A DNA stretch of 64,000 nucleotides from Hirudinaria manillensis (Eukaryota > Annelida > Clitellata > Hirudinida > Hirudinidae), in NCBI GenBank assembly GCA_034509925.1, contig CM067528.1, forward strand, positions 310,001-374,000. The letters are read 5' to 3'. The position numbers were made by a program, and so were the translations under genes. This document shows, piece by piece, positions 5,683 to 56,506 of this stretch. A model generated the notes under the pieces. That model was not told the origin of the DNA. It ran no database searches and saw nothing but the letters and a program-made list of their open reading frames with translations. How positions within the stretch are numbered: the stretch's first letter is position 1; every line of letters starts with the position of its first letter.

Positions 5683-5835
5683 TGATTTATTTTTATTATT
5701 TTATTTATTATGGTTATTTATTATTTATTATTTTTTATGGTTAGGTTAGGATAATTAATTAATTAACTATTAATAATTAACTATTAATTTATTTATTTAT
5801 TAAATTATTTATTTATTTATTTATTTATTTTTAGG
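5683..5835. repeat. AT-rich TTTATTTATTTA low-complexity tract
   Basis: Near-pure A/T sequence with ATTT periodicity, ending where the composite satellite begins at about 5836. Confidence 0.7.
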
Positions 5836-33911: not shown

Positions 33912-35184
33912 AAACCGTCAGGACGCGAGACGTCTCCGTCGAACCGACCCGTCGTTAGGATTTATATTCACAAATTCGTCGTCTTTAAACATTTATCATC
34001 GATTTGTATTTATTTCCAATTTTGTCTCAAATGTTTCGCACTATTGAATAGAAGATTTTGAAATTAAGAAGTGACATAATAAAAGATTGGATGCGCAAAA
34101 ATGCAAATTTCATCAACGTCCGGATCGTGCTGCCAATGCTCTTGTCGTGTGAAACAAAAGAAAAACCAAAGAAAAAAAAACCAATAAACAAAAGAAAACC
34201 AAAATATCATTCACTTTGGCGGCCATGGAAATTTTGTTCTAGGTTTTTATTAACTGAAATAATGTCACATTAAAATAAAAAGCCAGAAAAATAAAGTAGA
34301 ATGTAGGAAATGCTAGTCTCACCAAATTGGAATATACATGATGGACAATGATACAAACCTGCCTTCAAACAATTAATTGAAATGATTTCAAGATTATTTA
34401 TATTTACCTACAAAGTAGCAAATACATCAAAAGCTTACCAGGTCTACCGGCGAAACATCGCAAACGATCGTTTTCAACAAAATCGTGTGGTCCTCGTTTG
34501 GAATGAGGACCTTTCTGCTCACGGAATGAGTGTTCATGGAAATTACAAAAGCATGAAACGGGTCAAAGTTCAAAGATGGCGATGCTCATGATAGTAAACA
34601 GTAAACCGGTTTTATGTCAAAGCGAGTCGTAGTTTGAGAGGCATGACTTTCATCAGCTCGAACAACGATTACAATCGTTATCATCGCAACGAGGATATGA
34701 AGCTTATCACTTTCAAAAATGCTCTGTATCGTCCAGTCACTATAAATCGTGCGCATTGCGATGACGCGACCGAATCAATGTTTAGTAAGGCAAATGTAAA
34801 ATTCTTACATGATTGAAGTCTTCAATAAAAACTAAACAAAGAATGTTTGGAGGTGTGACACACATCATCATCATCATCATCATCAATAATAAGAAATAAA
34901 AAATAATTATTCATATATATTCAACTTTGATTCAATCATTCCTAAGAAGGAAGAGACTGTCAAACTCTAAGGCCGGGCATAAAGATTATTGTCAACCACT
35001 TCCAGATGTTCTGAAAAATGAAATCATAAACAAAACAAATCCAAATGCCAACAGAATTGAAGCAATCGCAAACTGTTCAATCAGTCACGACGTAATAAAA
35101 GTAGATTCAATCACGAATTTTAATGTCTAAACAAATCTAAAAATTGATTCGAAATAAGCCAAGCTCAAACTTTTTCACCTTTAC
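33912..35184. other. Intergenic; possible last exon of IgSF gene 1
   Basis: Low-complexity AT-rich DNA with a (CATCAT)n at 34864-34886. The minus-strand IgSF gene 1 needs one more 3' exon after its phase-1 donor at 35185, which should lie here. I could not identify it. Confidence 0.45.
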
Positions 35185-37094
35185 CTGCTTCAGCAACTTT
35201 GTTTTTATCTGAGATAAAAATAAAATCAACTTTAATAACTAAACAGTTGTGAAGATGAAAGCAAAATGGGACTTAAAGAGGTCTCATTCATAATATGATT
35301 ACCAACCTTTTATCTTTGCAACAACCCTACCATCTTTCTTGAGCTTCCTGTAGATGAAGAAAGATACCAACACTACCAATGCCAACCCAGCAAGACTTCC
35401 AAAGACGATACCAATAATTTCACCAACAGGTTTATCTTTTGAAAAGTAGTTAAGAAATCATTTGATCCGATAATTTGCATTTGATGCTTGATAGAATCCT
35501 AAAAATGTGTGAAGGTACTTCATAATTGCCATAGGCTATCCATACCTAGCACTGTGCAACTGTTAGACCATCCAAGGGTGTGTAAAATCTTTGGCCTTTT
35601 ATATATTATCAATTAGTGATGCTCATCATATCATATCATACCAGTTAATTGTCAGCAATATATTTAACAAGGAAAAACATTTCAGATTTTAATTCAATGA
35701 ATTGATAAGCAAGATTAAAATAACAAATCAAATTCTAAAGATAATGGCCCAGTGAACAAAAGCAATTTTAAGATAATTTTTTTATAAATTTCCTAAAAAA
35801 AGGATACCTTTCAAATCCTCTGCAAAACACAATAAAATATCGTTATTTATTAACAACCTATGAAATGAAAAATTCTAAATTTAGACAAACCTTCAGTTAC
35901 AACTTCAATGATACCACTCCACAGTGACTGGTATTCTTTGCTCAAAATGTTATTCTTGGCATTGCAAGTGCAGTTGTAAACACCAATTTGAAGGAACGTG
36001 ATTGTTGAATCACTGGAAATGAAACTGCTTTTATCACATTTCCACTGATACTGAGCAACTGGATCAGCATCAGAAAGACAAGTGACGGTCGTGTTAACTT
36101 GCGCTTTTGTCTTGTCGGGGCGAACATTCCTTGAAGGCACTGTGAGCATATTGTAAAACAATAAACACTCGAGAGATGCACATGTATGAGTGATCAATGT
36201 ACAAGAACATACCGTATACTCTTAAAGAAATATTTTGAATATCAGTGCCATAAACATCAGTCTCCAGGAAACGTGATATAGTTGAATATGTCCAAGAACA
36301 AGAATACATTATTGTTCCATTTGTATCCAGCTTAATTGAAGCTGAGGTTTTTCCTTCAATTGTAGCATTTATAGCTCTATCCGCACGATTATTAAAATCG
36401 TGAGTAGAATTATGGATTTTTATATTACTATTTATGTAATCAAGATAAGATTGGAATTTTACAGAACAAAGAAATGTCACATTATCCCCAATAACAAATT
36501 CCTTTTGTGCAGGATCGTTTTCAAATGTCAGCTCTCTGTCTGGAAAAACATGCAAATAATAACTAATTAGCTTTTCATAAAATGAAACCAAAAAACAGAA
36601 ATTCTCCCCACCTACTGTAAATACAAAAATTTCTGTTTTCTCTGATACGCAAAAATAGAGTCCAATCTTTTCCTTAGTCATAGCAAATTTATTGGCGACC
36701 TCCTTATAATTTTGCAGCCATTTTTCACATTTCGCATAATTCTGCAGGTCGACTGTTTCATTTGTCTTGACGTGGTATATATTGGCTGAGTCTAACAAGG
36801 TGTTACAAAGGTGTTAACAAGTATTTGATCAATGGAACTTCAGACAACATCTTCTTACAAACAAATGTATACTTATTTATAAATAAATTAAATAAATCGC
36901 CATCTCCAGGACTCGCACAGTTTACTTCAAACATAAAGTTGTCGATCAGATTTGATTGGTCTAGTTCCATAATTTCCAAATTATTTTAATGCTATTGTGG
37001 CTTATTAATTTATGACGAAACTGCCAGTATTCCTACCTGCAATAACCTCCAATAACGGCCAATAAAGTATCCAAATTATTGTAATTGTCTTCAT
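35185..37094 (-). CDS. IgSF receptor gene 1 (transmembrane)
   Basis: Type I cell-surface protein. Exons: signal peptide 37094-37037 (MKTITIIWILYWPLLEVIA), D1 36791-36612, D2 36539-36213, D3 36139-35891, TM 35435-35307, tail 35208-35185, all joined by phase-1 introns. D1 is short, with KCEKW and KIGLYFC. D2 is V-like, with VTFLCSVKF and YSCSW. D3 is C2-like, with VTCLSDADPVAQYQWKC, GVYNCTCNAKN and SLWSGIIEV, giving an extra Cys pair. The TM is EIIGIVFGSLAGLALVVLVS, followed by FFIYRKLKKDGRVVAKIKG. Several N-glycosylation sequons are present. No tyrosine-based ITAM or ITIM is visible in the part seen; the last exon was not found. Paired with gene 2 as a recent duplicate. Confidence 0.85.
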
Positions 37095-37341
37095 TTAGAA
37101 AATCGTCACTTTTCCGGCACAAACCAACAAAACCTCAACAAGGAAGTTTTCTTTTCAATGGGCATCAAATAATTGAAGCGCCAGGATCATATTGATGAAT
37201 TTTGGCGACTTCTGAATTTATCAATGTAATAAATAATAATGTAACTTAATATTATCAAACTTCTCTAAACATGCTTTAAGGGAGGGCGTTTGTTAGATGT
37301 ATCATTTTTGGACATCCCTTAAATAGAAACTGATTTCTAAA

Positions 37342-37803
37342 ATGTTCGAAGTGCAACAATGGCTTCTAAAAAATTATGGATATTCGAAGAGATCATACAA
37401 GGTGAAATACGGGCAGCCCGCTCCTAGATTTATCATGCCCGCTCGGCCCGCCTCCTACCATTTAAAAACACGACCCGCACAGGCCCGCTCGAATAATGCA
37501 CCCATCCCATACAAGATCTTAATAATCACACCACACTATATAAGTCGGATATACAAAAACATGTTTGATAGACTAAATTTTGTTGTTATAATGCAAAAAT
37601 AACACTGCATCCATCGTTTCTGGAGCTAAATTGGTTCTCCATTCACTGTAGACGTAACCGGAATTATTGCTTAAATTTCTCTCGCTGGTACAGTTTGTTG
37701 CCGGTATTGCAAAAACTTTCTTCGCCAGCGATGGCAAGGACGCCTCTCGTGACTTCTGCCACAACAGAAGAAAATCAAGGTTGTCAAAGCCAACAGCTTT
37801 CAA
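37342..37803 (-). mobile_element. hAT-family transposon remnant
   Basis: On the minus strand, 37803-37573 encodes the C-terminal dimerisation region typical of hAT transposases: FLLLWQKSREASLPSLAKKV, then AIPATNCTSERNLS, then LAPETMDAVLFLHYN. The AIPAT-x3-SER core and the final LFLH are diagnostic of the family. The rest of the transposase is absent. A GC-rich stretch with repeated GGGC/GCCC words at 37405-37500 lies downstream of the stop and probably belongs to the element's 3' end. Terminal inverted repeats were not defined. The insertion lies between IgSF genes 1 and 2. Confidence 0.85.
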
Positions 37804-38511
37804 GATAAGACAAACAGATATAAATTATTACCTACCTTAACTAAAATATACACTTACTCAAATGTGAGACTAAAAATGCCTATTTTGTAGAAACAAGACT
37901 GTACTTAGCTAAAAAGACTTGTATCCACTTGTGTACCTGGTAAATCTATTACTTTCTCAAAATATATGATGTACTTCTCGTATGAATATTTATATTTAAT
38001 AAAAGATGTAATAAAAGATGTTTTTATCGTGCAAATGGCATTCATGCGTATGAATATCGTGATGATAGTCGACCGCCACTAAAATCTGGATCTCGGACGT
38101 AAATCAAAAATAAAATTTGGCTCTTCACACAATTTAGTTTAACATAACTAGTTTAATTTAATCAATTTAATTGATTTTACCTAGTTATTAATTTAGCTGA
38201 ACTCACCTGCCATGCACTCTTGGTAGCACCCTAACTTGCCCAGCCAGAAATTTGTAGATAATAAACGAGTTACAATATTTTTTTAATTTCATTATTCACA
38301 AGAATAAACACTGAAAGACTCTAACGACATAAAGATTGTTTTCAACTACTTCCAGATGATTTGGAATTCAAAACATAAACAACAAAATAAAAACGCCAAC
38401 AGATTTGAAACTGTTCAATTGGTCATAATGTAATAACAGTTACACATTACAATCACGCATCACAACAAAGTTGATTCGAAATAAGCCAATGTCAAACTTT
38501 TTCAAGTTTAC

Positions 38512-41500
38512 CTGCTTCGGCAACTTTGTTTTTATCTGAGATAAAAATAAAATCAACTTTAATAACTTAAAAATCGTGAAGATTGTTGATTATGAATACA
38601 AAATGTGCTTTAAAGACGATCGCATGATCACCAAACAGAATCGAACCTTTTTGCAAGGAAGCAAAAGGCAAAAAGCCCACCTTTCTTGAGCTTCACTAAA
38701 ACAACAACAACCAACACAAGCAATGCCAAAAGATAATACTGATGGCAAGAATGCAACCACTGGAAGCAGCTTTTGAAAATTAGTTAAGAAATCATTTGAT
38801 CCGATAATTTGCATTTGATGCTTGATAGAATCCTGAAAATGTGTGAAGGTACTTCATAATTGCCATAGGTTATCCATACCTAGCACTGTGCAACCATTAG
38901 ACCATCCAAGGGTGTTCTTGGGTTTTGCCTGCATAGCTGGTCTTCAAAACACGTCGCGTAACTACCGCTGGCATTTCTGCCATAGTATATAGGCTGTCCG
39001 TTCAACAACCCAAGGGGACCTTATTCGTAAGTCTGTCGGTGCGGTGATTTCCCAAATGAAATCGACGGTTCTTTAATTGAGAATACCAGTGAAAATAATT
39101 AATTACAATGTGTTTGATTATTGCAAATATTTTTCTTCTACTTGAATGAATTATAAGTTAAGCCAAGCATGCTACAATCACGATATCCTCCAATCTCAAA
39201 TCTAAACGCAGCTGAATCGTCGTTAAACTTTTACGCTTTAAAATATTATTGATTACTGCTTCTTATCATAATATAGTGACGTATCGCACCATATCACATC
39301 AGTTTAACTACCGATCGTTATCAAGCATTATGCAAAATAACGAATTCAACTTACTTAAAAAAAACTTAACTTCATAAACTAAAATACAAGACCACACTGA
39401 GAAATTCTAAAGGTAGTGGCTAAATGATGAACAAAAGGACGATTTTTTTTTATAAATATTTCATAAATTTCTTTAAAGACAAAAAGGATACACAAGTCTG
39501 CAAAACACAATAAAATATTGTTATTTATTAACAACCTATAAAATGAAAAATTCTAAATTTAGACAAACCTTCAATTACAACTTCAATGATACCACTCCAC
39601 AGAGACTGGTATTCTTTGCTCAAAATGTTATTCTTGGCATTGCAAGTGCAGTTGTAAACACCAATTTGAAGGAATGTGATTGTTGAATCACTGGAACTGA
39701 AATTGCTGTTATTACATTTCCACTGATACTGAGCAACTGGATCAGCATCAGAAAGACAAGTGACGGTCGTGTTAACTTGCGCTTTTGTCTTGTCGGGGCG
39801 AACGTTCCTTGAAGGCACTGTGAGCATATTGTAAAACAATAAACACTCGAGAGATGCACATGTATGAGTGATCAATGTACAAGAACATACCGTATACTCT
39901 TAAAGAAATATTTTGAATATCAGTGCCATCAACATTAGTACTCAGGAAAAGTGACATAGTTGAATATGTCCAAGAACAAGAATACGTTATTGTTCCATTT
40001 GTATCCAACTTAATTGAAGCTGAGGTTTTTCCTTCAATTGTAGCATTTACAGCAATATCCGCATGATTATTAAAATCGTGAGTAGAATTATGGATTTTTA
40101 TATTACTATTTATTACATCAATAAAAGATTGGAATTTTACAGAACAAAGAAATGTCACATTATCCCCAATAACAAATTCCTTTTGTGCAGGATCGTTTTC
40201 AAATGTCAGCTCTCTGTCTGGAAAAACATGCAAATAATAACTAATTAGCTTTTCATAAAATGAAACCAAAAAACAGAAATTCTCCCCACCTACTGTAAAT
40301 ACAAAAATTTCTGTTTTCTCTGCTTCGCAAAAATAGAGTCCAATCTTATTCTTAGTCACAACAAATTTATTGGCGACCTCCTTATAATTTTGTTTCCAGG
40401 TGCCACATTTCACATAATTCTCCAGGTCAACTGTTGCATTTGTCACGATGTGGTATATATTGGCTGAGTCTAACAAGGTGTTACAAAGGTGTTAACAAGT
40501 ATTTGATCAATGGAACTAAAGACAATATCTCTTTAGTCAGCATCCTCATAAAGGTGAAAATAGTAAAAATAACATTATATTAGTAAAATAACATTATGTA
40601 CAAACTAGGCTAATGTAAATTTAATAAAGTGATATTACTATTATTATCAAAATTTTGGGTATCGTTTTTCTCTCGGGTTTTTCCAACAAATGTGTACATT
40701 TACAGACGTAAAAGTGTTAAGTAAACAATATTGGCAGATTATTCTTGAATTTGGCTCGCTGAACAAATCGTGTTGTTTTTTTTTTAACTCGGCGTTTATA
40801 GGATACTGTCCATAATCAATTATCGGAAGATTATATTCTTAAAAAGTCCTTTGCATAACCTTAAATGTCTCACAGAGAATATGCCAGGAAGACAAGAGAC
40901 TAGAACATTTGCTTGAATCATTCGAAGCAGATTTCAAGAAACCGAGAAGTCGAAAATCGTCATATTTTGCATTAATTAACATTCACATGTAGAATGTTGT
41001 AACATTCACTTAAAAAATTATAGTTTATATCTGCTAATATACTTCATGGCTTGTAACATATTATCTGATAAATTCAGTCGTTTCACAAAAGATGTTTGAA
41101 TGCAGGAAACCAGAGCAACGTGTGCATTTAGTAATAACACACCTGACCTTTAATTTTTGTACGACTTCAGGACATCAATCAAAAAAAAAAAAAATATGGA
41201 CTCTTCACGAAATCTAATTGGATGCTCCTTCTGTGTTCAAATGTTATTTCCCTTAGGGCATTTATTTCCTACCTACTATTACGGTTATTACATTGATATT
41301 TATGATTTGACTAATTATCATTAATCTTGTATTTTGCATTTGTTCAATTGGCAATTACAAGGCAAAACCAAGGGCTAATACCTTCTGAAAAAGTTCATTT
41401 AAAAACTCGAGATCTAATAAATCAGTAAATCTAAGATTTAATTACCATAACTACTCTTCATGGCCACCTTGGATTTACTTGCAATCTAACTACTTCCTAG

Positions 41501-41752
41501 GTGAGCATTATAACTGGGAATTAAAATCAATACTTCCAAACGAATATGTGCCTATGTCGAAACAAAAATAAAATAAATTGCCTCTCCTCGGACATCATCA
41601 GTCTGCTTCAAACATAAACTTATCGATCAAATTTGATCGTTCTCATAATTTCCAAAATATTTTTTAAATGTTACCATTAACCGGTAACTATTCCTACCTG
41701 CCATAACATTGAGCAACCAATACAATATCCAAATTATTGTAATGATCTTCAT
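38512..41752 (-). CDS. IgSF receptor gene 2 (recent copy of gene 1, disrupted anchor exon)
   Basis: Same plan as gene 1: signal peptide 41752-41698 (MKIITIIWILYWLLNVMA), D1 40469-40290, D2 40217-39891, D3 39817-39569, anchor exon 38768-38681, tail 38535-38512. D1 to D3 are intact with all Cys and Trp landmarks. The anchor exon is aberrant. Read in the inherited phase it gives AASSGCILAISIIFWHCLCW and then LLLF before a stop. The sequence matching gene 1's membrane segment (LLALLVLVVVVLVKLKK) is in another frame, so a small deletion has shifted the frame. The product may end in a hydrophobic tail, or the gene may be decaying. The tail exon is still nearly identical to that of gene 1. Intron 1 is much longer (1.2 kb) than in gene 1. 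Confidence 0.75.
38917..39014. mobile_element. Possible small inverted-repeat insertion
   Basis: A 98-bp segment bounded by CTTGGGTT and AACCCAAG interrupts otherwise matching intron sequence: the alignment with gene 1 is lost at 38915, opposite 35582. Bases to about 39060 are also unmatched, so the true insertion may be larger. It is a MITE-like candidate, weak because the inverted ends are only 8 bp. Confidence 0.35.
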
Positions 41753-42589
41753 TTTTAATGCGTTCACCTTCGCCTCTATTCTGGCACAAAACCGAAAAAC
41801 TTCAACAAGGAAGCTCACGGCGCGAAGTTATCAGACGTCTGCCGAGCAACCCAAAAGCGAAATGAAAACATAGGAATATTCAAACTAATTAAATGAATTA
41901 AATTTAATATTAATTGCTTAAATTGTGAAATTAAGTAATTTTATTTACTTTTTTATACACTCATTTATTTTGTCGCAAGGCCGTTTAATACTAACCTCTG
42001 ACAGATTCCCAAGTGCTAAATCATTATTAAATATTCATAGATTTCTTGTTCAGGTCGAGAGGCGTGGTCTCGACTATCGAAGAATTTAAGAGATGAACAA
42101 AATTATTTGACATGCTTTTATTTTATTTGTTACATAATTTTATTTAACTTGCTATGTGGACGATTAAATCTTGCATTCGATTTTTCGATTACTTCCCGTC
42201 CAAATGAGCTGAAATTTTACAAACTCACGGTTTTTGGATGGCAATTCACGAATCAACCATTAATTTTAAATTTCGCTATAAATTTAAATGCTTGACCACT
42301 GGAATATGAATTCTTCTGCCACCCAACTAATTTACAGAATTAGAAAATAAATCCGTAATTACAATTTTTTTTTAAATTTGCGCTCTATTTTCCTTTCAAT
42401 GGATATCGGGGTTCAATAAATACACACTTTTTGAATCCTATAAATTGTTATGATTATGAAAATATAACGAGCAAAACCGTCCATATCGATCACATGTCCT
42501 GATCCTCTCCAGCTTCAACCTCAGGGAAAGTCACCCTCACTTCCCTCAGCCTTGAACTCCACCGGACATATGCCATTCTAACGAACCGA

Positions 42590-42633
<44 letters not shown>

Positions 42634-44169
42634 ATAAATATTCAGCTCTGCCCATCAAAATGATTGACGGCAGTGTTGGCGTTGCAAAATGTCAATAGTG
42701 GAGGGAGTCCGTTGGACGGGGTTTAGTTTCGATTTTACCGAAGCCATTAAAAATAAAAAAAACTGTCTTAAAATAAAGTCTTGTTTTCGAAATACTTGTA
42801 GAATTATTTCCGGAAAAAGCATCATGTTGTGGATAGAATTAGAGTTATTTAAATGGAAAGTGAAAGCTCACACTTTTCCGATTTGAATAATAAGTTCCAG
42901 AATATTTAGTATCAATTGATTATTCAGCCCGACATAAAGGAAAAATAATATATAAAATCAATTTATATAATGGTGAGGATTTGTAATGTTCAAATAATGT
43001 AATTAAATAGTTTCCGATCAACCGGCTGCATGCTTTATCGCTTTATAAAATCCAAATTATTCCATAAATATTTACTTCATTTGGCCAGTTAATTATATTA
43101 AATAAAGTAAACTGTAATTCAAATATTACTTAATTAATTAATTAAAAATTGGGTTGTATAATTTATTGTCGATCCCCAATGTTCCCAGTTACCCTATCAA
43201 CTTTATTGTAATACGAGCGTCTTTTTTCTTCGGTCATTTCATGTCTGATCCCGAGTTTCAAGCCGACGAAGCATTAAAAATCTACTTTCAAAGCAGCCTG
43301 CCTCAACAAGTACGTGAGATCCCGCCATTGTCATCGCTTTAATTCGAATTTGAATCTTTTTTTTACACAAAGTTCACTACAAGACTAAAGTTTATTTGAT
43401 ATGAAATTCAATTAAAATCCGTGCATAAGCAAGAAAACGAAATCCGTCAAGGAAAACATGCTTCAATGAATTTCTTTCCTCCAGTTCAACGCTTTTGACT
43501 TATTGAGTACGGGCTTCCAAATGCAGGTTAATCCCTATAAATCGGCAAATACAGATTCTCAATTATTACACCGCTTACACATTATCATATCACGTCAAAT
43601 GCTATGAATAAAGACATTCCTTACATTTTAATCGCATGAAACCGCTCATAATGACTGAGGCGAGGGATATAAAACCGTTCGGATATTTTCTTTCGGCTCC
43701 AGCTTAAAATAAAACACTTTTATGTAATAAATATTTCATTTTTAATTAAGAACAATCGAGAGCAACGATGCTCCGACTAGCTAGCTATCCCCTGGCTATT
43801 AGCTGGTTGTATCAAGCTAGTTTTCTAATCACGCTTGATCCTCCAGCTGGGAAAAGTAACTCGTGTAAAACTAGTGTCCTAATATCTTGAATAACCTCGG
43901 CTTGTCGGGCAATTTCGGGCTTATTGTTGCTGGAACGAGAGAGAGAGAGAGACGATTACTTTTTGTAGTTTATTTGAACTTAACTTAACTCTCGGGCAGT
44001 CACGATCTGAAAACCCGACCGAAGAACAACGGTCCTCTGCAGAGCGCGTGCGCTACATCCCTTATCTGCACAAATTCATCGCTGCAACATCCACACGATC
44101 GACCACGTAAGCCATTCAATGTTTAGAGCAAAAAACTTAAAAGATTAATTAGGTAATTAAATAACTAAC
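41753..44169. other. Gene-free stretch between IgSF genes 2 and 3
   Basis: AT-rich, with an (ATT)n at 42592-42632 and a short (GA)n at 43939-43952. IgSF gene 3 lacks an identified anchor exon, which could lie near 43.5-44.1 kb, but no hydrophobic splice-bounded frame stood out. Confidence 0.45.
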
Positions 44170-45384
44170 CTCCTATTATGACCGTACCGTTCCACATAGA
44201 CTTGTACAGAGTGCCATCTATGATATTTGTGGCATAACAGGTGCAAAAGTATTTTCCGGGATTTTGAATTTTAAGCTGTCGACCGTTACTTTTCCAGCTA
44301 TTCCCCTCACAATTCCACTTGTAGGTGGGCATCGGCTCTCCATCGGAGATACAGTTGATCGGAATGTCGGGCTCCCTCAGACCATCTTCGGGCTTTACAT
44401 TCGTCGGGGCCACTGGAAGGAAGGAAGGAAGAGCCCCTAGAGTTGCAAGCGCGGACGATTCGCAGCGAAATCTGCCTCAACGTACTGTATACGTGAAGAG
44501 GCTCATTCAATGCTTTGGTATAATTTGCAACCACTTGCCCTGCTCTCGTTTCGCTGCTAAAAGCGCACTTAATTGCCATTGACCCGGGTTTGGTCAATAG
44601 AATGCCCGCGACCACTCGCAATTCAATCTGGTGTCCCCGACCCGTTTCGACGTATCTCTTATGTTCACGGCCAAATGAATCGGTCAACACCAGTCGCATT
44701 GTCATCCAGTTGAAATTTCCAGCAGTGCATGCACAGAAACAAGTAGAATCCAAAATATCTCCGACCATGTTGAACTTTCTGGGGTGAGTGGCCAAATCGA
44801 ATGTTACTGGTTCTTCTATTGATAGTTAAATGCGTGTCAGTTGCTTTTTAGTTAACTCGATTATTCACGACAATCGCCCGTGTGCCATATTGTAAACTAT
44901 TAAGTTTATGAGAATTATCAGATTTTTGTGGAACTGAATTTTAAAAAATAAAATAAAATTTTCTTGAAATCAGAAATGGTGAACTGTAATGAAACGTAAA
45001 TAATAAATTATTAGATATAATTTTAAACTATTTAGGCATTAATGCCTTAAGAAACTGACTACATGCCAGGTAGAACACTTTCGATCTCCTGGGACAATGG
45101 TAAAAGCCCACTTTTGAAGTTGTCAACGTAATTATTTCGTTAGGCTCTAATTTCTTGTATTCGAAGATCCACCCTTCTGGACAGTCATCCAGAGAGATAA
45201 TGGCAGCAAACTTTTTTACTATCATGTCGATCCTTTCTGAAAGCAATTTATTTTTCTTTGTACGAAACTCCATATCAAAGATCGAAGATCGAAGTAATCG
45301 GCAAAAATTCCACTTCATTCGATGGCCATCCATACCCGCTTCTGCATTGCGAAAGACGACGATGAATAGAGTTGCAAGCAACAT
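44170..45384 (-). CDS. IgSF receptor gene 3 (3' anchor exon not found)
   Basis: Exons: signal peptide 45384-45336 (MLLATLFIVVFRNAEA), D1 45236-45060 (DDCPEGWIFEYKKLE with KVGFYHC), D2 44815-44486 (starts EPVTFDLATHPRKFNMVGDI; SMAIKCAF), D3 44412-44170 (APTNVKPEDG; INCISDGEPMPTYKWNCEG; GKYFCTCYATNIID; SMWNGTVIIG). All junctions are phase 1. D2 has a run of extra Cys (CFCACTAG) not seen in the other copies. The exon plan and D3 landmarks are those of the cluster, but sequence identity to genes 1 and 2 is low, so this is an old paralogue. After D3 a normal donor GGAG|gttagt follows, so at least one more exon is expected. Confidence 0.8.
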
Positions 45385-46769
45385 TTTCCTGTTGAGAATT
45401 AAAAGCCATCAAACTGAGACAATTCGTCCATCATTTGAGTAGAACCTCGTCCTGTCGTCTTCTCGAGAATTAAAAGAAATCTCGTTGAACGTTTTATTTG
45501 AACAATGGAGATGGTGTTTTCAAAACAGACCGTAAATTTTTCGATTTTTTTTCTCTTTTATTTATTTAAATATTTAAATATTTAAATTACGAACGAGCAT
45601 TACATTTCTTTTGCCGCGGGATTGATTGCGACGGTCACATGGCATGCGACACACCCAGACAAAAACCAGACCGATTGAAACCATATCAATTCTCATTCTC
45701 ACCTCTTTTCTTAGCTAATTCCCTTCAGCTCCCAGTAAAAAAAAAGCCAAATTAAATACCGCTGTGGAACTCTATTTTCAAATTCAAGAGTTTATTGTTT
45801 TTAATCTCAAATTCAACGAAATGAGTCGATAAAACGAAATCAAGCGCAACTTCCGGCCTTTTCGCCTTCTTGAAATTCATCAAAAAAAAGAATAAGAAAA
45901 AAAGAAATGTGTTGAAAAATGCAACCTCAACTGCCTGAAACGAAATCAGAGTCTTATTTCTACGATTTATTCGTAGTTCGTTGGTTCATGAACCAGGATT
46001 ACAATAAATTCAAGAAATATTTGTAACATACATTTAGGTGTTCGAGTAGTTCCAGTCAAGAGATATTAATAAAGGGCACCACTTCTGAACTGTAAAGTAG
46101 ATAATAGTTCACATAGAATCAAATGATTTCTCGCAACTTACCTTCACACGCTGTTGGTGATGATGGCAACAGCCAACAACGCTATTCCATCCATGCCGTT
46201 CCCAACGGTTCCAGCTTTAAAAATGTCGTTTTATCTTTTATTTATCAGCCAACAAGTGTTCAATTTCTTAATCAAGAAATGACCACTAATTAATTAGTTA
46301 AAACGATCACAAACACCCATCAAAATTTGTTTCTTGAAATCTTAGAATCGAAAAAGCAAAAAAATGTTTCGGACACAACTTTGCGCACCTCAAGTTGTAA
46401 TGTTTGTCGGTCCGAGGAATAATACCACGAAAAAGTTAAATTTGGTTGAAGCGACTGACAATGGAAAAAGCCATTTCTTGTAGTTGCTTACTGCAGTCAT
46501 ACAAGTTACAAGGACGACTACGACTACGACAACAACAATAACAATAATAATAATAATAACAACAACAACAATAATAAGCCGATCTGTTCATCATTCATCC
46601 AATAAAGTAAGGGCAATTCAAAACATAAACCTTCCTAAAAGATATTTTACAAGCAAAGACCACCACAGGAAAGACCTCTTGTTTTGTTAAACTGGCCACC
46701 TTTCAGAAGCTTATGAATAAGCAGATAATCAATCCGACATTTTACAGCCAATAATTAACAAGTGCTAAC
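45385..46769. other. Spacer between IgSF genes 3 and 4
   Basis: No exon identified. Holds an (ACG/ACA/ATA)n triplet tract at about 46509-46576. The anchor exon of IgSF gene 4 may lie in the right half. Confidence 0.45.
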
Positions 46770-47849
46770 CAATTAACATGAATGTACCATTCCACGATCC
46801 CTTATAAACAACTCCTCCGATGGTATTGCTGGCGCTACAAACGCAAGAGTACTCCCTGTAACTGGAGAGTTTAAGCTGGTGTCCTTCGCTTTGCCAGTCT
46901 TTTCCCTCACAAATCCAGTCGTAATCGGTGGGCGTCGGATCCCCTTCCGAGATGCAGTTAATCGGTATATCGATCATCCCGACATTGTTGTCGGGTCTGA
47001 CGTTCGTAGGAGGCACTGGAAGTACGTGGCAAGGAAATGCAAAAGTTGCAAAACAACGATGCATTACACTACAAAGTCGTACTGTTTACGTAAATTGTTT
47101 CATTCAATTCTTCGAAATAATCGACAGTTGCGAGCCCAGCCGTGACTTTATAGTTGAAGGTGCATAGGTAAGTTTCCCAGCCTGGCTTGGTCAATGAGAG
47201 AAGTTTGTGCGATACGAGAAGACATGGAATTAACAAGCATTCCGCATAGGATCGGACTATTATACTGTCGGAAGAATCGGTAATCCTTGTATAACTGAAT
47301 CCTGAAAAGTCATTGCCTGGGACAATCTCGGTACTGCAAGTGAGTTCAATTTTCCGTCCAACTACGTTATATTTTCCTAATTCGTTTTTCAAATCAAATT
47401 TCAAAGGATAGTCTGAAAATATTAAACATATTATTTTTCCTGTACAAACTTTAAGGTCTTTTCAAAATAATTTCTAACTGTATGCCAATATGAAGAGCTT
47501 ATCGACGTCTGGACAGTGATAAAAACCGATTTTTGACTGTGTCAAGCTAACTTCTACAGAATTCAAACTCTGATAATCGTATATCCATCCTTTCGCGCAG
47601 GTATTCAAAGAAACCTTAGATCCGAACTGAGCTGTATGTACTCGTACCAACTCTTAAAAGAGAAACAATAAGAAATACATAAGGGAAATGCATCGACCAT
47701 ATTTTGAATAGCAACATATTTTGAAAACAAGGACGGCGTCTCTGAAATATATTGAAATTAAGAACAGATATTTATAGTTTTTCTTTCTTATACGAAATCC
47801 TACCTGCCCCGGTACTTTGAAAGAGAAAAACAAAAAGTAAAACGAGCAT
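46770..47849 (-). CDS. IgSF receptor gene 4 (3' anchor exon not found)
   Basis: Exons: signal peptide 47849-47804 (MLVLLFVFLFQSTGA), D1 47651-47479 (NTCAKGWIYDYQSLN; KIGFYHC), D2 47411-47083 (YPLKFDLKNELGKYNVVGRK; ELTCSTEI; ETYLCTFNYK), D3 47015-46770 (PPTNVRPDNN; INCISEGDPTPTDYDWICEG; REYSCVCSASNTIGG; GSWNGTFMLIG). Phase-1 junctions throughout. Closest in D3 to IgSF gene 3 (PTNV-RP, INCIS-GDP, SWNGT), so the two are probably sisters. The sequence ends with donor ATTG|gttagc, and the anchor exon is not identified. Confidence 0.82.
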
Positions 47850-48907
47850 AACTTTCTCGATTGCAGTCGCCAGCCGAATCACGACACGGCAAAACACGCC
47901 GCGAGCGACGCCATTACGCTCACAACTAAAGCTAACTCAAAGCGGCTCCTTTAAATAGTAGGGATGGATTTTTCAAGTCGCAGACGGCAATTTCTAAAGT
48001 CCTTTTATTAACTACATTTAAAATTAGACATAAAGACATGAAAATATATCTATTAAACAAAATAAATAAGTGAAATCCAGTTTTCAACGAAGTGAGATAG
48101 TTCTCAAAAAAAAAAAAAAAACAAACAAAACAAAAACTTTTATTCAAACCCTATCCGAGTTTTGACAATTCTTTGATTAACTTAACTAATTACCTGTATT
48201 CTTGATAGCAAAGAATAGTATTAAGGTAAAAAGCCAAGTAGAAGTAAGTAAAAGATAATTGATGATTCGATAATCCAGAATAAATAATCAAATCTTCAGT
48301 CAGTTAATCAGGCCGGGATCTGGAACTGAAGAGTACGAACTGGTAGAAGATAATCTAAACTGAAAAATAGAAAAGATTGCTTGTTCCATTTTAATTCCAT
48401 TCTAAGAACATCTCATCCTTCTGACTCTAACATCCGGAAATGTCTGATGCGCCGATTGTAGCGGATGCTGTGATTTCGATTTCTATATTGGCATTGGTTA
48501 TTATTCTTATCATTGACTTTCCAAAGTACTTGTACGCCAAAATGTAAAGTCGAGACCATTACTTTTACCAGAGACAGTCCACCGTGGTTCTGCTTTATAT
48601 CTGCTTCTATCAAACACTATTTGAATGGATGCCTGCGAAATGTAGCAACAAAATTATATTTCTCAGTTAATTACAAAATTGTAAATTATTAACTCGCTTA
48701 GTTAATTAATCGATTATTAAGAATCATTTCACTTTCCGATTAATCAGCCATCCCTGCATCTGTTTTCATTTGGAACTAGGCGGGTATGATCTCACTGGAG
48801 ACTTATTTATAGTTTAAAAGAAATTTTATTTAACATTTATTATTTGAAATTACCTTACAAACCACATTATTAAACAGCAGATCGCCAAATAAAAGCATAA
48901 AGTAGAA
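47850..48907. promoter_or_regulatory. Divergent intergenic region between IgSF genes 4 and 5
   Basis: Gene 4 (minus) and gene 5 (plus) start back to back about 1.06 kb apart, so both promoters are here. An A-run and a CAAAACAAAAAC stretch lie at 48105-48138. No specific regulatory motif is recognised. Confidence 0.45.
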
Positions 48908-50334
48908 ATGCTCTTTAGCTTGCTTCTAGATTTCTTCTTTTTTGGGGCTACCTACGGAGGTAAATCGAAATGTTTCAAAATGTCCGCAGCGAATATTATT
49001 GCCGGCAATATTAAACAAAAACCTTAATCATTCTAGTAATATTCCATAGTCGATCGTATTTATGCCTTTAATTTGATGCTTTAAAAGTTGCGAAAGATTG
49101 TTCGAGATATTTTTTTTGTTTACAGTAACCAAAAGAGTTATGATACAACACAACGGAGCTAAAGTACAACTAACAAAGTGTGATTGGCTCTTCAAGGGGG
49201 GTATTTCTGGTGACCTAATAAATGTAGTCCAAAATACTGCCGGCTTTTATTATTGCAACAAAACCAAAGAATTGATTTTGCTAGTGGTTTTCGGTTGGCT
49301 AATTCTCGACTATTTTGCACCACGCATTTGGCGCTCTTAAACGAATTTCAGCCATAATTAAATAATTAGTGATTTTATTTTATTCTCATAGAACAATTTT
49401 TGAGACTTGACAGTCCAACAGAGGATAATTCGATGTTGGGAGACGAAATATCTCTTAAATGTATTGCGGAACTGTTGGTGGGAACGCACATAAAATTACA
49501 TTCTGTATTCAAAATTACGAATTCGACGGGCGCCGAAATAGAAACAATAGTGCATGACGTACATTCCAGAGATACCAAGGAGTACAAGATAACAATCAAG
49601 TACAAGACCATTGAATACGGTGAACAGTCGTTCAACTGTTCGTTATACATGGAATGGACTTACGAAGACCTGGTAATGGAAACCACTATTTTCTCAAACC
49701 TGACCCGATCGGTTTATGGTACGTCTTGCTTTTATGTTTTCCGTCATAAACGTAGCTCATTCCTCGTCTAAATTGTCCAACAGCAGCTCCTACTCTTGTC
49801 GTGCCCGACAAGCTTGTGGTTACGGTCAACAAAACTGTCACTTGCTCGTCCGACGGCTACCCGGTTCCGAATTTCACTTGGATGTGTTCGGATGGCAACT
49901 GGAGTAGTTCCAAAGAAAGACTGATCATCCATGCGAGGGGAAAATTCAATTGCACCTGCAAAGCAAGCGCCCAAATCCTTGGCACATTGAAAGAGGCAGA
50001 ATGGCACGGAGCAATCGAAGTAGTCGGTAAAAGGACACCTTTGGTAAAAAAAAAAAACAACAAAACAATCAGAGACTCTTCAATATTCTCGACGATTAAT
50101 CTTGCAGTGGGCCCTGTGCTTTGCCTAGGATCGTTATCTATATTATATGTAAAATATGCTCGCGTCATTCGTAACAAGGAAATTGTGCACGTACTACCGT
50201 TTACGTACAACTTGATGTTTGTACTTCTATCGGTTGACCTTAAATTTACAGACGGATCCGAAATGAAGCATCTTACCGGCATCGTCATCACGATCTCTGC
50301 CGTCTTGCATTTATGGAAACTAAATTTGAAATGA
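48908..50334 (+). CDS. IgSF receptor gene 5, hydrophobic C-terminal region in the D3 frame
   Basis: Exons: signal peptide 48908-48959 (MLFSLLLDFFFFGATYG), D1 49126-49293 (TKCDWLFKG; AGFYYCNKTKELI), D2 49392-49718 (EQFLRLDSPTEDNSMLGDEI; SLKCIAEL; SFNCSLYMEWTY), D3 from 49784 (APTLVVPDKL; VTCSSDGYPVPNFTWMCSDG; GKFNCTCKASAQILG; EWHGAIEVV). At the point where the other copies stop for a phase-1 intron (GTCG|gtaaaag, 50026) this one stays open for about 102 more codons to a stop at 50334. That stretch has three hydrophobic segments (FSTINLAVGPVLCLGSLSIL; VLPFTYNLMFVLLSVDL; LTGIVITISAVLHLW). Either the anchor is encoded without an intron, or this is intron read through. I cannot decide which. Confidence 0.75.
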
Positions 50335-50552
50335 CACGGAATGATTTCTAGACGATTCAGAAGAGAAGTGACAAGAACTTTATTGGACTCTTTATTATTA
50401 TTATTTTATTTTTATTTGTCACAGAAATTTAAAAACTTTGAATTTCTCAATCGTTGTCTGACAACATCTTTTGTGCAGAACTTTTAACATAAGGTTAGGA
50501 ATTTTATAGCTTGGTAAATAACGATTTGCGAGCTGCTTAGATGTAACATAGA

Positions 50553-51050
50553 TTGATTGAGGGAAGGGAGACAGGGATGGAGGGGAGAATTATTATTATT
50601 ATTATTATTTTTTTCCCTTTATTTTCTCGGCCAAAAAAATCATCCAACAGCAAACGCGATCATCAAACACCTCAACTAACATCCACTGTCCCCCCTCCGG
50701 GCCCGAGATCACCCCGGGACATACAACCGCATTCCCCAGCGCCAACAACACCGCGCTATAAACAAGCGACATCAACCATAATCAATCACTATAGTCCAAT
50801 TCGCCGGCGCCAATGTTTATGAGTTCTGCGCTTATGGAATTTCCACATAAGGTAGGTGTCCAGCAAAACCGATGTTGCCAGGTACATCATGCCGTTTCTG
50901 GACAGACCGATGCCCCGCCATGACGAGTAAGATCTGGAGGATATCACTCCTCTGAAGTTGCATACAAAGGCGGTTACTATGATCTTCGGAGAGAGAGCAC
51001 CCCCAGGGTTATTGTTAGACATCCAGATATTATTATTATTATTATTATTA
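50553..51050. other. Spacer with triplet repeats and a GC-rich island
   Basis: (ATT)n tracts at 50590-50612 and 51030-51054 flank a segment of about 400 bp that is clearly more GC-rich than its surroundings, with CCCGGGC-like words at 50695-50720. On the minus strand 51022-50792 is open, but I recognise nothing in the translation. It could be a fragment of a mobile element. Confidence 0.35.
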
Positions 51051-51272
51051 TTATTTTGTTATTGACGTGAATAAGCATTTTATAACTAAAAATAGTTGGG
51101 TTTTATAATTACAATTGCTTTGATAAACTAAAAAAAACATTGCCATCCCCTTGCAAAAAAATGATTACGTCATCAAGAATTTGTTTCGTCAGAATATCAC
51201 AACGTCCGTCCGGATTCGATTGCAGGGAGACAATAAAATAAATAAATAAAATAAACGACAATAATAAATTAA

Positions 51273-52775
51273 ATGATGTCCAATTCAAATCATTTGCGGC
51301 AAATATCTCACTATCTCACCCTCGTCTTATTGCTGGATCGATTATTCTGCCAAGATGAAGGTGAACGGAAATAGATGAATTGTTGGAAACGATTAATCAA
51401 TTATTTTACCTTAATTAATTAAACAAATAATTTTATTATTCGTTCTTTGAATCGGAAAAAAGTAAATTTTATTTTTTTTATTCCCCGCTGCCTTAATTCG
51501 AGAGACAGGATGTGATTATTAAACTCAAAAAAGAATAGCAAATTAAATTCTAATATTAAATAAATATTAAATAAATCAATAATAATAATTGAAATGCCAC
51601 GATTATTGTGCAATTATTCAAGCCAATGATTCGATTTCATGGATTGTTAGAAGTGCCGAAAGCTATTCTTTCCTTTGAAATGCTTAAGAATTTAACCTGC
51701 GAAGCTTGAAAGATCATAAATAAAATTAAACTTAATTAGTTGGAAATATAATTTCAATCGTTTATTTATCTCAATTCAATGTTACATTCGTACCACAAAG
51801 TTAATAATACTAATATTACTATTAACACCAATAATACTATTAATACTAATGCAGCATAATTTCAATTTTAGAAGAATTAAAGAATAAGACCTTCATCGTA
51901 GGAAAATTGTATGCGAACACCTTGGGAATTTTAGGTAATTGCACTGTTGGGTGGAAGAGAAATAATGAAGACATACGTGAGGATGATACCTTGTCTCAAT
52001 CAAAAATTGGATTTTATTACTGTGAGGCTACTCAGCATTTAGTATATCTCGGATTAAAAGGTTTGCAATCTAGGCTTGATGATTTGTCTTTTTTTTAAAT
52101 AAACGTCACTTTTGAACAATTTAGGAGAAAAGCCCTTCACATTTGTCCACTTTGAATCAAACAAGACTTCAAGAACGGGGGACGTGGCATCATTTTTTTG
52201 CAGCCTGGAATTTATGACGCCAAATTTTCCTTCAAACCTTACGTTGTTTTGTACAGGCCCGGATGGCACTATATTGAAAACACTAACAAAAAACACTCAG
52301 AAAGATACAACTGAGATTAAATTGAATCACACTCATACACTTACTGGCTATGGCAAGCAGACCTTTCATTGTATTGTTTATCATGGCGTGGACAATGAAA
52401 AAGGATGGAAAATGGATTACAAAGATTCCAAGTCATTGGACATTACAGTTTACGGTAAGCCATTTGCTGTCACGAAATCTTCGATCGTACACCTGAATGT
52501 TTAATAATCGTACTTAAACTCAGCGTCTCCGACAAACGTCAAGCCAAGCGAGACCAGGATAATGCTAGGCAATATCGTTGTTTGTACAGCGGAGGGCTAT
52601 CCATTTCCTGACGAAATCAGTTGGTCTTGCAAAGGCAGTGCGTGGAAGTCCGAAAAAGCAAATCTAACTTTAGAAAGTGCCGGGGAACATCACTGTAACT
52701 GTACTGCTAAGGCAACGGGTGAGTCTGGAGAAGACAGTGAAGGCTTTTGGAACGGTACTATCCATGTAAAAGGAG
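51273..52775 (+). CDS. IgSF receptor gene 6 (3' anchor exon not found)
   Basis: Exons: signal peptide 51273-51360 (MMSNSNHLRQISHYLTLVLL then LDRLFCQDE), D1 51872-52060 (GNCTVGWKRNNEDI; KIGFYYCEATQHLVYLGLK), D2 52125-52454 (GEKPFTFVHFESNKTSRTGD; SFFCSLEF; QTFHCIVYHG), D3 52524-52775 (ASPTNVKPSET; VVCTAEGYPFPDEISWSCKG; GEHHCNCTAKATGES; FWNGTIHVKG). All phase 1. D3 shares PTNVKP and WNGTI with genes 3 and 4. A donor GGAG|gtagtc follows; downstream exons between 52.8 and 53.5 kb were not resolved. Confidence 0.8.
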
Positions 52776-53819
52776 GTAGTCATGATTACCTAAATGTCAT
52801 CAGTGACTAGTGTTAGTTTTGTAATATCAAATATCTGCTAAAATTCCTAACAGATGGAGCCAAATTGGTCCTAACTAGCATGTTAGCATCCGTCGTCGCA
52901 TATGCGCATCTGATTCTTGCATGATAAAGTTTTCGAATTCGGAGAAAGTCACCGGCATTTGTTGAAAACATTCCCTCTTTATTTTGTAACATGTTTTCGA
53001 TTTAATTAAATTTCTTTGTTTGGGTTTTTGGAAAGTAAACAAGTCGTCGACTTTAAAACTGGAACGTTTCAGGATCAGCAACCGATAAACTCTCGGTGAT
53101 GACGCAAGTTCTACCAAAAAGCAAGGGCAAGCAGTGCAGATTCAAATAATTTAAATGCTCTTAAATTCTTCTTCCTTGACCTTAATGTCAGCTCTTTTCC
53201 CTGGGCGCCTCTTTCTGTCGTGAGAAGCGATAGAATTTTAAAAGTAATCAAAGCAAAACAATCCATCGCCGTCGTTTGGCACTTCGAGCAAAGAGGAAGC
53301 AGTTGCCATCAACGTTCTTTCCGGGTATCTTCGCAGAAGGATGGACAATTCCAGACATGCATCACATTGAAACTGCTTATACTTACGCAAGCACGGAGCT
53401 TGAACCCTAAAGAAGGATATTGAAATTTTTAGTGAAGCACAAGGACATCCTTAATCACACGATTTGCAAGCAATGCGTCAGAGTCCATCGTCCTCTTTCG
53501 GTTTTAGTGTAAAGTAACAAATCTCAACGCAACCCTCCAAAATAACATTCCAATTGCTTTCCACTCAATAAAAAGACCATTTAATTTCATAAATCGTCTC
53601 CACTTTTTTAATATTTGTTTATGTTGTGGGATTATATAATATAAATAATATTTGATCGTTGCTTTGCGTACCTCGTTGTGGATAAGTATGAAATTCTTGC
53701 ATATTTTGTAATGTAGTACTAATAATAATGTTATTCTTAAATATTTTAGTTTGCATATTTATTTATTTATTATTTTTTTTTGTTTTGTTTTTTGTTCTCA
53801 TTATTTCATTATGTGCTCG

Positions 53820-53925
53820 GTCGTGTCTATGGTAATGTGCGTCGGCAGTGCCTTGACATCCTAGGACTTGGATAAAAAAAGGCACTTAAAATATTGGAGG
53901 AATTGAATTGAATTGAATTGAATAG
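53820..53925 (+). mobile_element. Possible 3' end of a non-LTR retroelement
   Basis: A unique stretch (TGCGTCGGCAGTGCC onward) ends in a short tandem GAATTGAATTGAATTGAATA, an arrangement often seen at the 3' terminus of LINE-type elements. No reverse transcriptase sequence is present nearby, so this is tentative. Confidence 0.3.
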
Positions 53926-54482
53926 CTTTTAAATCGTTGTTTTATGATTAAAAGTGTCCTTAATCCAGATATGTCACCGCCATTAACGGCTGGTCGTTAA
54001 ATGACCGATTTTAGTGAAAAGATTAGTTCATGCCAAAAGGACATGATACACCTCGAGGATCTGCCAAATGAACGTTCGGTTCCCTTGGCAACATCTCTTC
54101 GCTCGTGTTCGTTTCGTACTGTGTCGTGTTGCGTGGTTTTGATAAACCAATTAGACAGAGATTTTATGGAATCATAAAAGCTCATGACTTTACAATAGCA
54201 CAGACAGGAGACCATTTCAAAGGGAGTTTAAATTTAAATTTAAATTTCAATACGTCAATATCACCAAAAACTGAAATTACTGCTGTTTTGTAGACCAATG
54301 TTATCGGTTACCATTAGACAAGAGAGAAACAAAAAATAAACATAAAATAAACATTCTATAGCCACTTCTATACAAACAGACGGACAGACTTAAGAGCCCT
54401 GTTCAATAAAAGAATATAACAAGTGCAAATGCAGCAACAAAATCAAAACAGCAACTTATTGAAGACAGTTTCACCGAACTTC

Positions 54483-55020
54483 TCATGAGAGACCGAATGA
54501 AATAATAATCAGGAAAATAGCTTCAATGAGTTTCTGGCGATGCGCACAAACTGCCCCGCTTCTGGCCGGAACCTTTCTGTCCTTACCTCCAGTTGTAAGC
54601 CTCGTCGGTGCCTTTTTTGTTCCGATGGATGCAGTGGATGGCTCTGTGGTCGTAGACTTGATAGTCTGGATTATCACGGTCGTCTCCAGGTAAATTGTGC
54701 TCTCCATAGTAGGCTCTTCTTTCTCCTGACCGTCCACTGCGGCTGAGAACCAATTAAAATGTTCCAACGATCTATTAAATTTCACAACTGCATGATTGGA
54801 TATGTGTTTGCATCAAATAAATATTGTTTATTCATTCATTTATTTATTTATTTATTTATTTTATTCACTAATATTTAATGCCGTCGCTTAGCAGTGGAGT
54901 TTTTTCCAAGCATCGGACCTTGTAATAGGTGATAATGTTCTCAACTTTTGTTAAGAAGGTAAATGTTTACCGTTATCAACCAATAAATCAACAGACCAAT
55001 CAGTTAACCGACCGACCAAC

Positions 55021-55060
<40 letters not shown>

Positions 55061-56506
55061 CAATCAATCAATCAACCAATCAATCAATCAATAAGAAATA
55101 TAACCGAAAAAGTCTTCTCCCTCGCCGTAACTGGATATGATCCCACTCCAGCTGTCCCAGTACTCCTTGCCATCAATGACGTTCATCGCCGTGCAGTTGC
55201 AGGTGAAGTTTCCGCTGTCTTTCATGACCATTGCCGAACCCTTGGACACCCAGTTACCTTCGTTCGAGTCGTTGAACCGGCAGACCCAATCGTAGGTAAT
55301 GGCCGGGTAACCGTCGGCCAAACAGAACACGGTATCGTAGCGATTTACGACGGCCTTGGAGATCCTCGCGTTTCCTACAGGTTCTGGAATTGCCGCAGTT
55401 AACGAGAGTCAACCGCTTTTCAATCGCTATCGCACTGCTCTTGGCGAACCGAACGATACGTTTCTTATACCGAATTTATAAAGAAAGTAAGCCCACATTC
55501 TTACAATTAGCAAAGAATCCATTATGGAATGGATGGATGGATGGATGGATGGATGGATGGATGGATGGATGGATGGATGGATGAATGAATGAATGGATGG
55601 ATGGAACGAACGAACGAACGAATGAATAACTCGAAAAGAAGTCGACTTACTAATGACCTCCACAGTAGCGTTCGTCTCGTCGAAATTTGCCTGTGTCCAC
55701 TCCTTTTTCTCGTTAGAGATTTTATACCTCCACAGGCAGAGGTAAGAATTGAGACCATAAGATGGGGTCTCCCTTACTTCTATCGAGCCTTGGTAGTCGC
55801 TTCCTTTGGCCGACTTGTCCGTAATTTCTGCGACGATTGTGCCGCTCGAGTTCATGATGGCCATGTAGTGATCGAAGAAGAATCCAGACGTGTTAAACTC
55901 CACACTGCAGTTCAGTTTCACCGCCTGGCCGTAGAATATGGAACCCGGCGACACGGAAACCATGTTCAGTTCTTTCTCTTGGTGAATGATTTCAATTAAT
56001 TTAATTCAATTAATTCTTTCGAATTGTTTACGTGACATAAACTGCAATAATAATGGCATCGACTAGCAAATGATTAAGCACTGGAAATCAGATCCACTCA
56101 CTCAAGACGATCACGAAGACCTCCTTTTCGACAGAGGGACATTTGTAGAAGGAAGTCATACCAGCCGTGGCCACTTGGGGCATGTTCATGGTCTCACCGT
56201 CGACTGTCCACGATTGGTTGCAGGTGAAAAAGTTGTTCAAGTCGAAAGGCTCGCCTGTCAGAACTTCGACGACCTCGTAGTTCTCTGATAAATTAATAGC
56301 TCTCTAACAATATTTTGAATCTTTTTGGAGCCGACAAAACTTTTCAAAATACAAAACTTATTTCATCAACGAGTCAAAGCTCTTATTTATTTTCACACTG
56401 CAAAGTCTGATCAGTATACAAAACAATGAATTGTTTACTTGCCACCATTTTCGTCACTAGCTAGTGTCAAGGCCATAGTGAACGTTGTTAAGAAAGTAAG
56501 GATCAT
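54483..56506 (-). CDS. IgSF receptor gene 7 with Thr-rich stalk and GPI-like C-terminus
   Basis: Exons: signal peptide 56506-56446 ([20 protein letters not shown]), D1 56284-56102 ([34 protein letters not shown]), D2 55977-55651 ([31 protein letters not shown]), D3 55383-55105 or 55126 ([58 protein letters not shown]), and a terminal exon 54743-54483. The last exon encodes a Thr/Ser-rich stalk ([20 protein letters not shown]) and ends [14 protein letters not shown] before the stop. A hydrophobic run with no cytoplasmic tail is the usual form of a GPI-attachment signal. The D3 donor is either GC (TTACG|gcgagg) or a GT 21 bp later. More GC-rich than the other copies. Confidence 0.8.
55013..55092. 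repeat. (CAAT)n tetranucleotide repeat
   Basis: ACCAACCAATCAATCAATC tract in the intron between D3 and the terminal exon of IgSF gene 7. Confidence 0.88.
55529..55625. repeat. (GGAT)n, then GAAT and CGAA tetramers
   Basis: About 60 bp of GGAT followed by shorter GAAT, GGAT and CGAA runs, in the intron between D2 and D3 of IgSF gene 7. Confidence 0.9.

Follow-up and report, generated by a model that had tools for sequence, protein, structure and literature searches.

Seven related genes, here named g1 to g7, lie within 21.5 kb of a stretch of 64,000 nucleotides (nt) of the genome of the leech Hirudinaria manillensis (contig CM067528.1, positions 310,001 to 374,000), and each of them encodes three immunoglobulin (Ig)-like domains, D1, D2 and D3. 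The whole stretch is referred to as the window and corresponds to C3:310001-374000 in the searched assembly of 148.4 Mb and 23 contigs. The new observation is that exons diverge more than introns in the two youngest gene pairs of this family, g1/g2 in the window and a3/a4 in a second cluster on contig C3, a pattern that is absent from both controls analysed in the same genome. It is reasonably probable that the genes represent a lineage-expanded family of three-domain surface recognition proteins of the immunoglobulin superfamily (IgSF), with outer domains under diversifying selection that likely bind a varying partner. In a limited literature search, no description of a diversifying IgSF receptor family in annelids was found, and no such family was named in leeches. 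Since the family is small and located and its exon/intron contrast can be set against two controls from the same genome, the question of recognition becomes testable.

Five of the genes are located on the minus strand (g1, g2, g3, g4 and g7) and two on the plus strand (g5 and g6). In all seven, D1, D2 and D3 are encoded by separate exons of a length divisible by three, flanked by AG and GT and in phase 1, with lengths of 168-189 nt for D1, 327-330 nt for D2 and 243-252 nt for D3 (279 nt in g7), giving domains of 56-63, 109-110 and 81-84 amino acids (aa), respectively (93 aa for D3 of g7). The ectodomain of g2 is 88% identical to that of g1, those of the remaining window genes 20-27%. An initial annotation, made from the sequence alone, had described seven genes in these orientations with a common D1-D2-D3 plan and phase-1 symmetric exons as one family, and this description is borne out by the exon models and by the loci outside the window.

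For the analysis of the family across the genome six protein queries (g4, g1, g5, g7, a4 and d2) were used at expectation values (E) up to 0.1. Five of the six returned the same 19 loci and the g5 query returned 18, the locus on contig C12 being absent; the family thus comprises at least 19 loci. Fifteen of the 19 are located on contig C3, namely the seven window genes, four loci at 541-552 kb (a1-a4), three at 1.09-1.10 Mb (b1-b3) and one at 6.587 Mb (c1), and the others at C2:1.996 and 1.999 Mb (d1 and d2), C2:2.962 Mb (e1) and C12:5.812 Mb. This number does not include weak single matches at C7:6156513, C3:260091, C3:565131 and C3:7509448 (E 0.001 to 0.07). The D3-like match at C3:565131-565418 (E 0.03) lies near the 541-552 kb cluster and is perhaps an additional or broken member.

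Profiles of the domains, a tool proposed in the initial annotation, were applied to the loci outside the window. Built from the window genes only, they detected D3 at all 12 of these loci, D2 at 11 (E<1e-4) and D1 at 9 (E<0.003), in order and on one strand, which a chance arrangement would not produce; the D1 and D2 matches are more independent, because the outside loci had been picked by protein matches, mostly to D3. D1 of d1 was detected later with the d2 protein query. The best-scoring splice pair of the outside exons was phase 1-1 for all nine D1 exons modelled (10 tried), for 9 of 11 D2 exons and for 10 of 11 D3 exons. The C12 member is a single intronless open frame with signal peptide, D1, D2, D3 and membrane segment and is probably an old retrocopy; its single frame therefore gives indirect support for exon order and splicing without RNA. 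In trees, neighbours were grouped together (g1/g2, g3/g4, g5/g6, a3/a4, b1-b3 and d1/d2) with 7 or 8 of the 16 inner branches open, and the copies would have been generated by tandem duplication. Shuffling of domains between copies, to which the initial annotation had pointed, is not shown, since the order D1-D2-D3 is the same wherever all three domains were found.

The contrast between exons and introns was computed for g1/g2 as well as for the independent pair a3/a4. The exons of g1 and g2 differ at 46 of 756 positions, the introns at 0 of 145 (Fisher 0.0006), with identical D1-D2 introns (36540..36611 in g1, minus strand; 0/72 differences) and D2-D3 introns (36140..36212, minus strand; 0/73). 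By exon, the differences amount to 20/180 in D1, 18/327 in D2 and 8/249 in D3. Within a block of 977 nt, the limits of which were set where the flank differences start, 46 of 756 coding and 0 of 221 noncoding positions differ (1.2e-5). Beyond this block identity is 76% in the intron between signal exon and D1 and 70% in the intron between D3 and the membrane exon, and because the units are less alike further out, the D1-D3 block of about 1 kb was probably homogenised through gene conversion. The ratio of nonsynonymous to synonymous divergence (dN/dS) is 1.57 in D1, 2.05 in D2 and 0.43 in D3. In D1 and D2 together 27 codons are changed, of which 25 alter the amino acid and eight carry two or three changes. 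When the changes were placed at random (743 of 5000 simulations were kept, those without stop codons), 7.1 synonymous codons were expected and 2 were seen (P 0.016), and 2.8 codons with multiple hits were expected and 8 were seen (P 0.0013). It was observed post hoc that changes lie near the Cys/Trp anchors.

In a3/a4 189 of 768 exon positions and 64 of 487 intron positions differ (Fisher 5.6e-7), corresponding to 27.1%, 24.9% and 22.6% in the exons and 13.2% and 13.1% in the introns, with a dN/dS of 1.43 in D1. The controls behave differently. In a tandem array of trypsin genes on contig C10 (18 genes, 153 pairs) one of 57 close pairs, i.e. pairs with both divergences <0.30, which share genes and are not independent, has exons more divergent than introns, and the median ratio is 0.70. 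In an unrelated tandem Ig pair on contig C13 the exons differ at 76/330 (23%) and 40/342 (12%) positions, the intron at 120/246 (49%, poor alignment); the C13 cluster seems to belong to another family, in which exon/intron divergence is ordinary. Exon acceleration is equally typical of reproductive and immune proteins, and that of g1/g2 and a3/a4 would also fit gamete or mating recognition in a hermaphrodite worm, with the speed arising from sexual conflict or species recognition rather than from immunity. No result speaks specifically against such a role, but a set of 19 paralogues, some dispersed and some clustered, in which anchor types are mixed would be unusual for gamete proteins, and we consider it unlikely.

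Several results weigh against the reading as recognition proteins with outer domains under diversifying selection. In a3/a4 dN/dS is below 1 in D2 (0.83) and D3 (0.88), and in g1/g2 the difference between nonsynonymous (33/396) and synonymous changes (8/157) is not significant (p 0.21). Synonymous sites, too, exceed introns in g1/g2 (p 0.007) and a3/a4 (p 0.0005), and protein-level selection is therefore not the whole story. The older pairs are mixed or saturated. D2, but not D3, lies above the D2-D3 intron in d1/d2 and g3/g4, and the introns of b2/b3 diverge more than its D1 and D3; exons and introns are level in a1/a3, and g5/g6 shows only a nominal exon excess near saturation. Moreover, no conversion donors for the g1 or g2 variants were found among the family loci, and the anchors of a1-a4, b1-b3, c1 and e1 remained unsettled in modelling. 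The term diversifying, used for the locus in the initial annotation, is supported on evolutionary time by the exon excess of g1/g2 and a3/a4, set against controls from the same genome, although the older pairs give a mixed picture.

The excess at synonymous sites, the lack of a consistent exon excess in older pairs, the anchor exon of g3, which was looked for and not found, and the 3′ exons of g2, altered in comparison with g1, would all suit relaxed and partly decaying duplicates without any special recognition role, in which the likeness of introns stems from conversion or a hidden splicing constraint. However, all seven window genes have undamaged D1-D3 reading frames, splice borders and Cys/Trp patterns, g1/g2 show more multi-hit and fewer synonymous codons than expected, and the trypsin and C13 controls lack the pattern; this explanation appears very unlikely.

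With respect to domain identity, no Pfam model reached its cut-off on six ectodomains (g2, nearly a copy of g1, was omitted), and the C12 protein had no Pfam match at E up to 0.01, in line with the earlier remark that no named family is known to carry this arrangement. The best matches of D3 are to Ig_3/I-set (7.7e-5, below the curated cut-off), and the domain is an Ig domain of I-set-like character that has two additional cysteines (WxC and CxC). With a three-domain profile 139 matches in PDB were obtained (E up to 1), the best being DSCAM (9.4e-12) and Robo1 (3.5e-10), and nearly all of the best 60 of the 139 matches extend into D3. D2 alone gave 16 weak matches at E up to 1 (best 0.021), several to antibodies, T-cell receptors or VNAR and others to neural Ig proteins, and for D1 three matches were obtained, the best at 0.065 (E up to 10). 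The D1 pattern, a Cys, a Trp 2 to 4 residues later and then YxC within 56-63 aa, suggests a shortened Ig domain. A probable membership in the IgSF is supported by the Cys-Trp-YxC pattern, and the one-domain-per-exon plan with phase-1 borders typical of this superfamily was found.

Three Ig-like domains and the ends resembling glycosylphosphatidylinositol (GPI) signals in g2, g4, g5 and g6 would also be seen in DIP/IgLON-type receptors for neural wiring, in which paralogues serve as adhesive neuron labels, and OBCAM (5.5e-7), IgLON5 (4.4e-5) and neurotrimin (5.9e-5) are among the best 60 of the 139 PDB matches. The top matches in the same set, DSCAM and Robo1, are other Ig proteins, however, and the short D1, the 20-27% identity of paralogues and exons outpacing introns do not fit receptors that are usually few and conserved; a wiring function is regarded as quite improbable.

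The gene models start with g1 (34967..37094, minus strand), which has its signal exon at 37037-37094 and, placed by profile, D1 at 36612-36791, D2 at 36213-36539 and D3 at 35891-36139, followed by a membrane exon (35307-35435) and a short tail spread over two further exons (35185-35208 and 34967-35010) that ends in NNLYARP and a stop. The interval given for the cluster in the initial annotation did hold the seven genes; its limits had to be revised, as g1 continues to 34967. On the same strand, g2 (38696..41752) consists of signal exon 41698-41752, D1 40290-40469, D2 39891-40217 and D3 39569-39817, and its terminal exon 38696-38769 with a hydrophobic GPI-like end is deduced from open frame and acceptor. 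The g2 exon homologous to the membrane exon of g1 is read in a different frame and stops after the hydrophobic stretch, and hence the near-twins appear to differ in anchor type. No immunoreceptor tyrosine-based inhibitory or activation motif (ITIM/ITAM) was seen by eye in the g1 tail; its NNLY resembles a phosphotyrosine-binding (PTB) motif and is present in one gene. The tail of the C12 member has only a few residues.

Two further minus-strand genes are g3 (44170..45384; signal exon 45336-45384, D1 45060-45236, D2 44486-44815, D3 44170-44412) and g4 (46144..47849; signal exon 47804-47849, D1 47479-47652, D2 47083-47412, D3 46770-47015, terminal exon 46144-46214). The plus-strand genes are g5 (48908..50334; signal exon 48908-48959, D1 49126-49293, D2 49392-49718, D3 49784-50026, terminal exon 50252-50334) and g6 (51276..52924; tentative signal exon 51276-51360, D1 51872-52060, D2 52125-52454, D3 52524-52775, terminal exon 52854-52924). 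The last exons of g4, g5 and g6 are short with a hydrophobic, GPI-like C-terminus. The minus-strand gene g7 (54483..56506) comprises a signal exon (56443-56506), which is compatible with phase 1 only given a GC donor, D1 (56102-56284), D2 (55651-55977), D3 (55105-55383) and a Thr-rich stalk with a short hydrophobic end (54483-54742), the 3′ end being tentative. D3 of c1 (C3:6586870-6587418) likewise continues in-frame into a Thr-rich stretch. Splicing across neighbouring genes is not favoured, as signal and last exons of their own were modelled for g1, g2, g4 and g5 and, tentatively, for g6 and g7; in g3, where no last exon was found, it may occur.

Judged from these predicted ends, the family proteins would be secreted via the signal peptide and, where the end was modelled, anchored in the membrane through either a transmembrane segment or a GPI-like tail, and a location at the cell surface is likely. 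The compact D1 and the V-like D2 would most likely serve to bind a variable partner, which may be a microbe, a conspecific cell, a gamete or a neuron, and the membrane-near D3 changes least. In g1/g2, conversion may keep the noncoding parts alike while diversifying selection accumulates amino-acid changes in the exons. Taken together, the signal peptides and anchors, the Ig-like domains, the growth in tandem and the accelerated exons point to surface recognition of something changing. These data do not distinguish between immune, self-recognition, gamete and neural roles, and the immune or allorecognition role suggested in the initial annotation may be one of them.

The initial annotation had noted a transposon remnant among the genes, and a C-terminal piece of a hAT transposase is indeed present between g1 and g2 (37576..37824, minus strand; Pfam PF05699, 3.4e-08). 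The open frame 50792-51058 (minus strand) had no Pfam match. Elsewhere in the window, a ZIP zinc transporter exon (12828-13475, minus strand; PF02535, 5.8e-22) belongs to an ordinary neighbouring gene, and positions 5800-9600 form a long minisatellite-like stretch that is open in more than one reading frame and has repeated short peptides. In the remaining genome, trypsin-like exons form a very large tandem array at C10:2.52-3.24 Mb, which accounts for dozens of the listed PF00089 matches (172 in the genome). Further groups of V-set Ig exons were found at C13:952-966 kb, C11:0.50-0.61 Mb, C2:13.52-13.56 Mb, C1:2.98-3.03 Mb and C10:4.80-4.86 Mb. Contig C23 (15,581 bp) is the mitochondrion, with COX1 identified by Pfam, tRNA-Gln by ARAGORN and other genes by eye from translations; its gene order, cox1-cox2-cox3-Q-nad6-cob, a stretch reading N, and nad1-nad3-nad2, is the one common in annelids. 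A full COX1 at C9:3026446-3027786 with a score equal to that of the mitochondrial contig either represents a nuclear copy of mitochondrial DNA or results from a join in the assembly. Additionally, a hirudin-family exon, as expected of a leech, was found at C4:12249547-12249618 (33.9 bits, curated cut-off 25).

Among known systems, the molluscan FREPs are described in PMC11999971 as a diversified invertebrate IgSF family. The leech family is likewise diversified, but its proteins end in membrane or GPI-like segments, and no match to a fibrinogen domain, which is C-terminal in FREPs, was found in the six ectodomains or the C12 protein. In the DIP/IgLON layout three Ig domains are combined with a GPI anchor, and the N-terminal Ig domain has about 95 aa. 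The leech proteins share the three domains with DIP/Dpr/IgLON, and hydrophobic C-termini suggest the GPI anchor; they differ by the short D1, the very low identity of paralogues and the exon acceleration in young pairs. Vertebrate paired receptors combine near-identical ectodomains with different membrane ends, which resembles g1/g2; in the leech pair, the g1 tail shows no ITIM/ITAM by eye and the g2 end is a predicted one.

In vertebrate major histocompatibility complex (MHC) class I genes introns are more alike than exons, and the leech genes similarly have variable coding parts beside uniform introns in a different architecture. A more far-reaching and, in our view, improbable reading is an MHC-like annelid recognition complex, in which highly polymorphic D1-D2 exons, their diversity maintained at synonymous sites too, would lie amid introns and flanks kept uniform by conversion and tail swaps would make g1/g2 twins of different signalling type; besides selection, conversion or mutation focused on exons could produce such a pattern. 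An ITIM/ITAM-like cytoplasmic tail is a feature of the Alr proteins of Hydractinia; in the leech family the motif is absent from g1 by eye, the C12 tail has only a few residues, and the other ends are GPI-like or unsettled. The closest layout is that of the Alr complex, likewise consisting of clustered paralogous IgSF surface genes (Huene et al. 2022, as described in PMC11876637 and PMC11999971). PMC11876637 gives 40 Alr or Alr-like genes inside the complex and three outside, mostly on one chromosome, and PMC11999971 describes the Alr V-set and I-set domains as unique. The leech family differs by its 19 loci, its occurrence in an annelid, the compact D1 and several GPI-like ends. As the likeness to Alr is one of layout and the g1 tail shows no ITIM/ITAM, it is not filed as a member of the Alr family, and is placed among families that may work like those of the Alr type.

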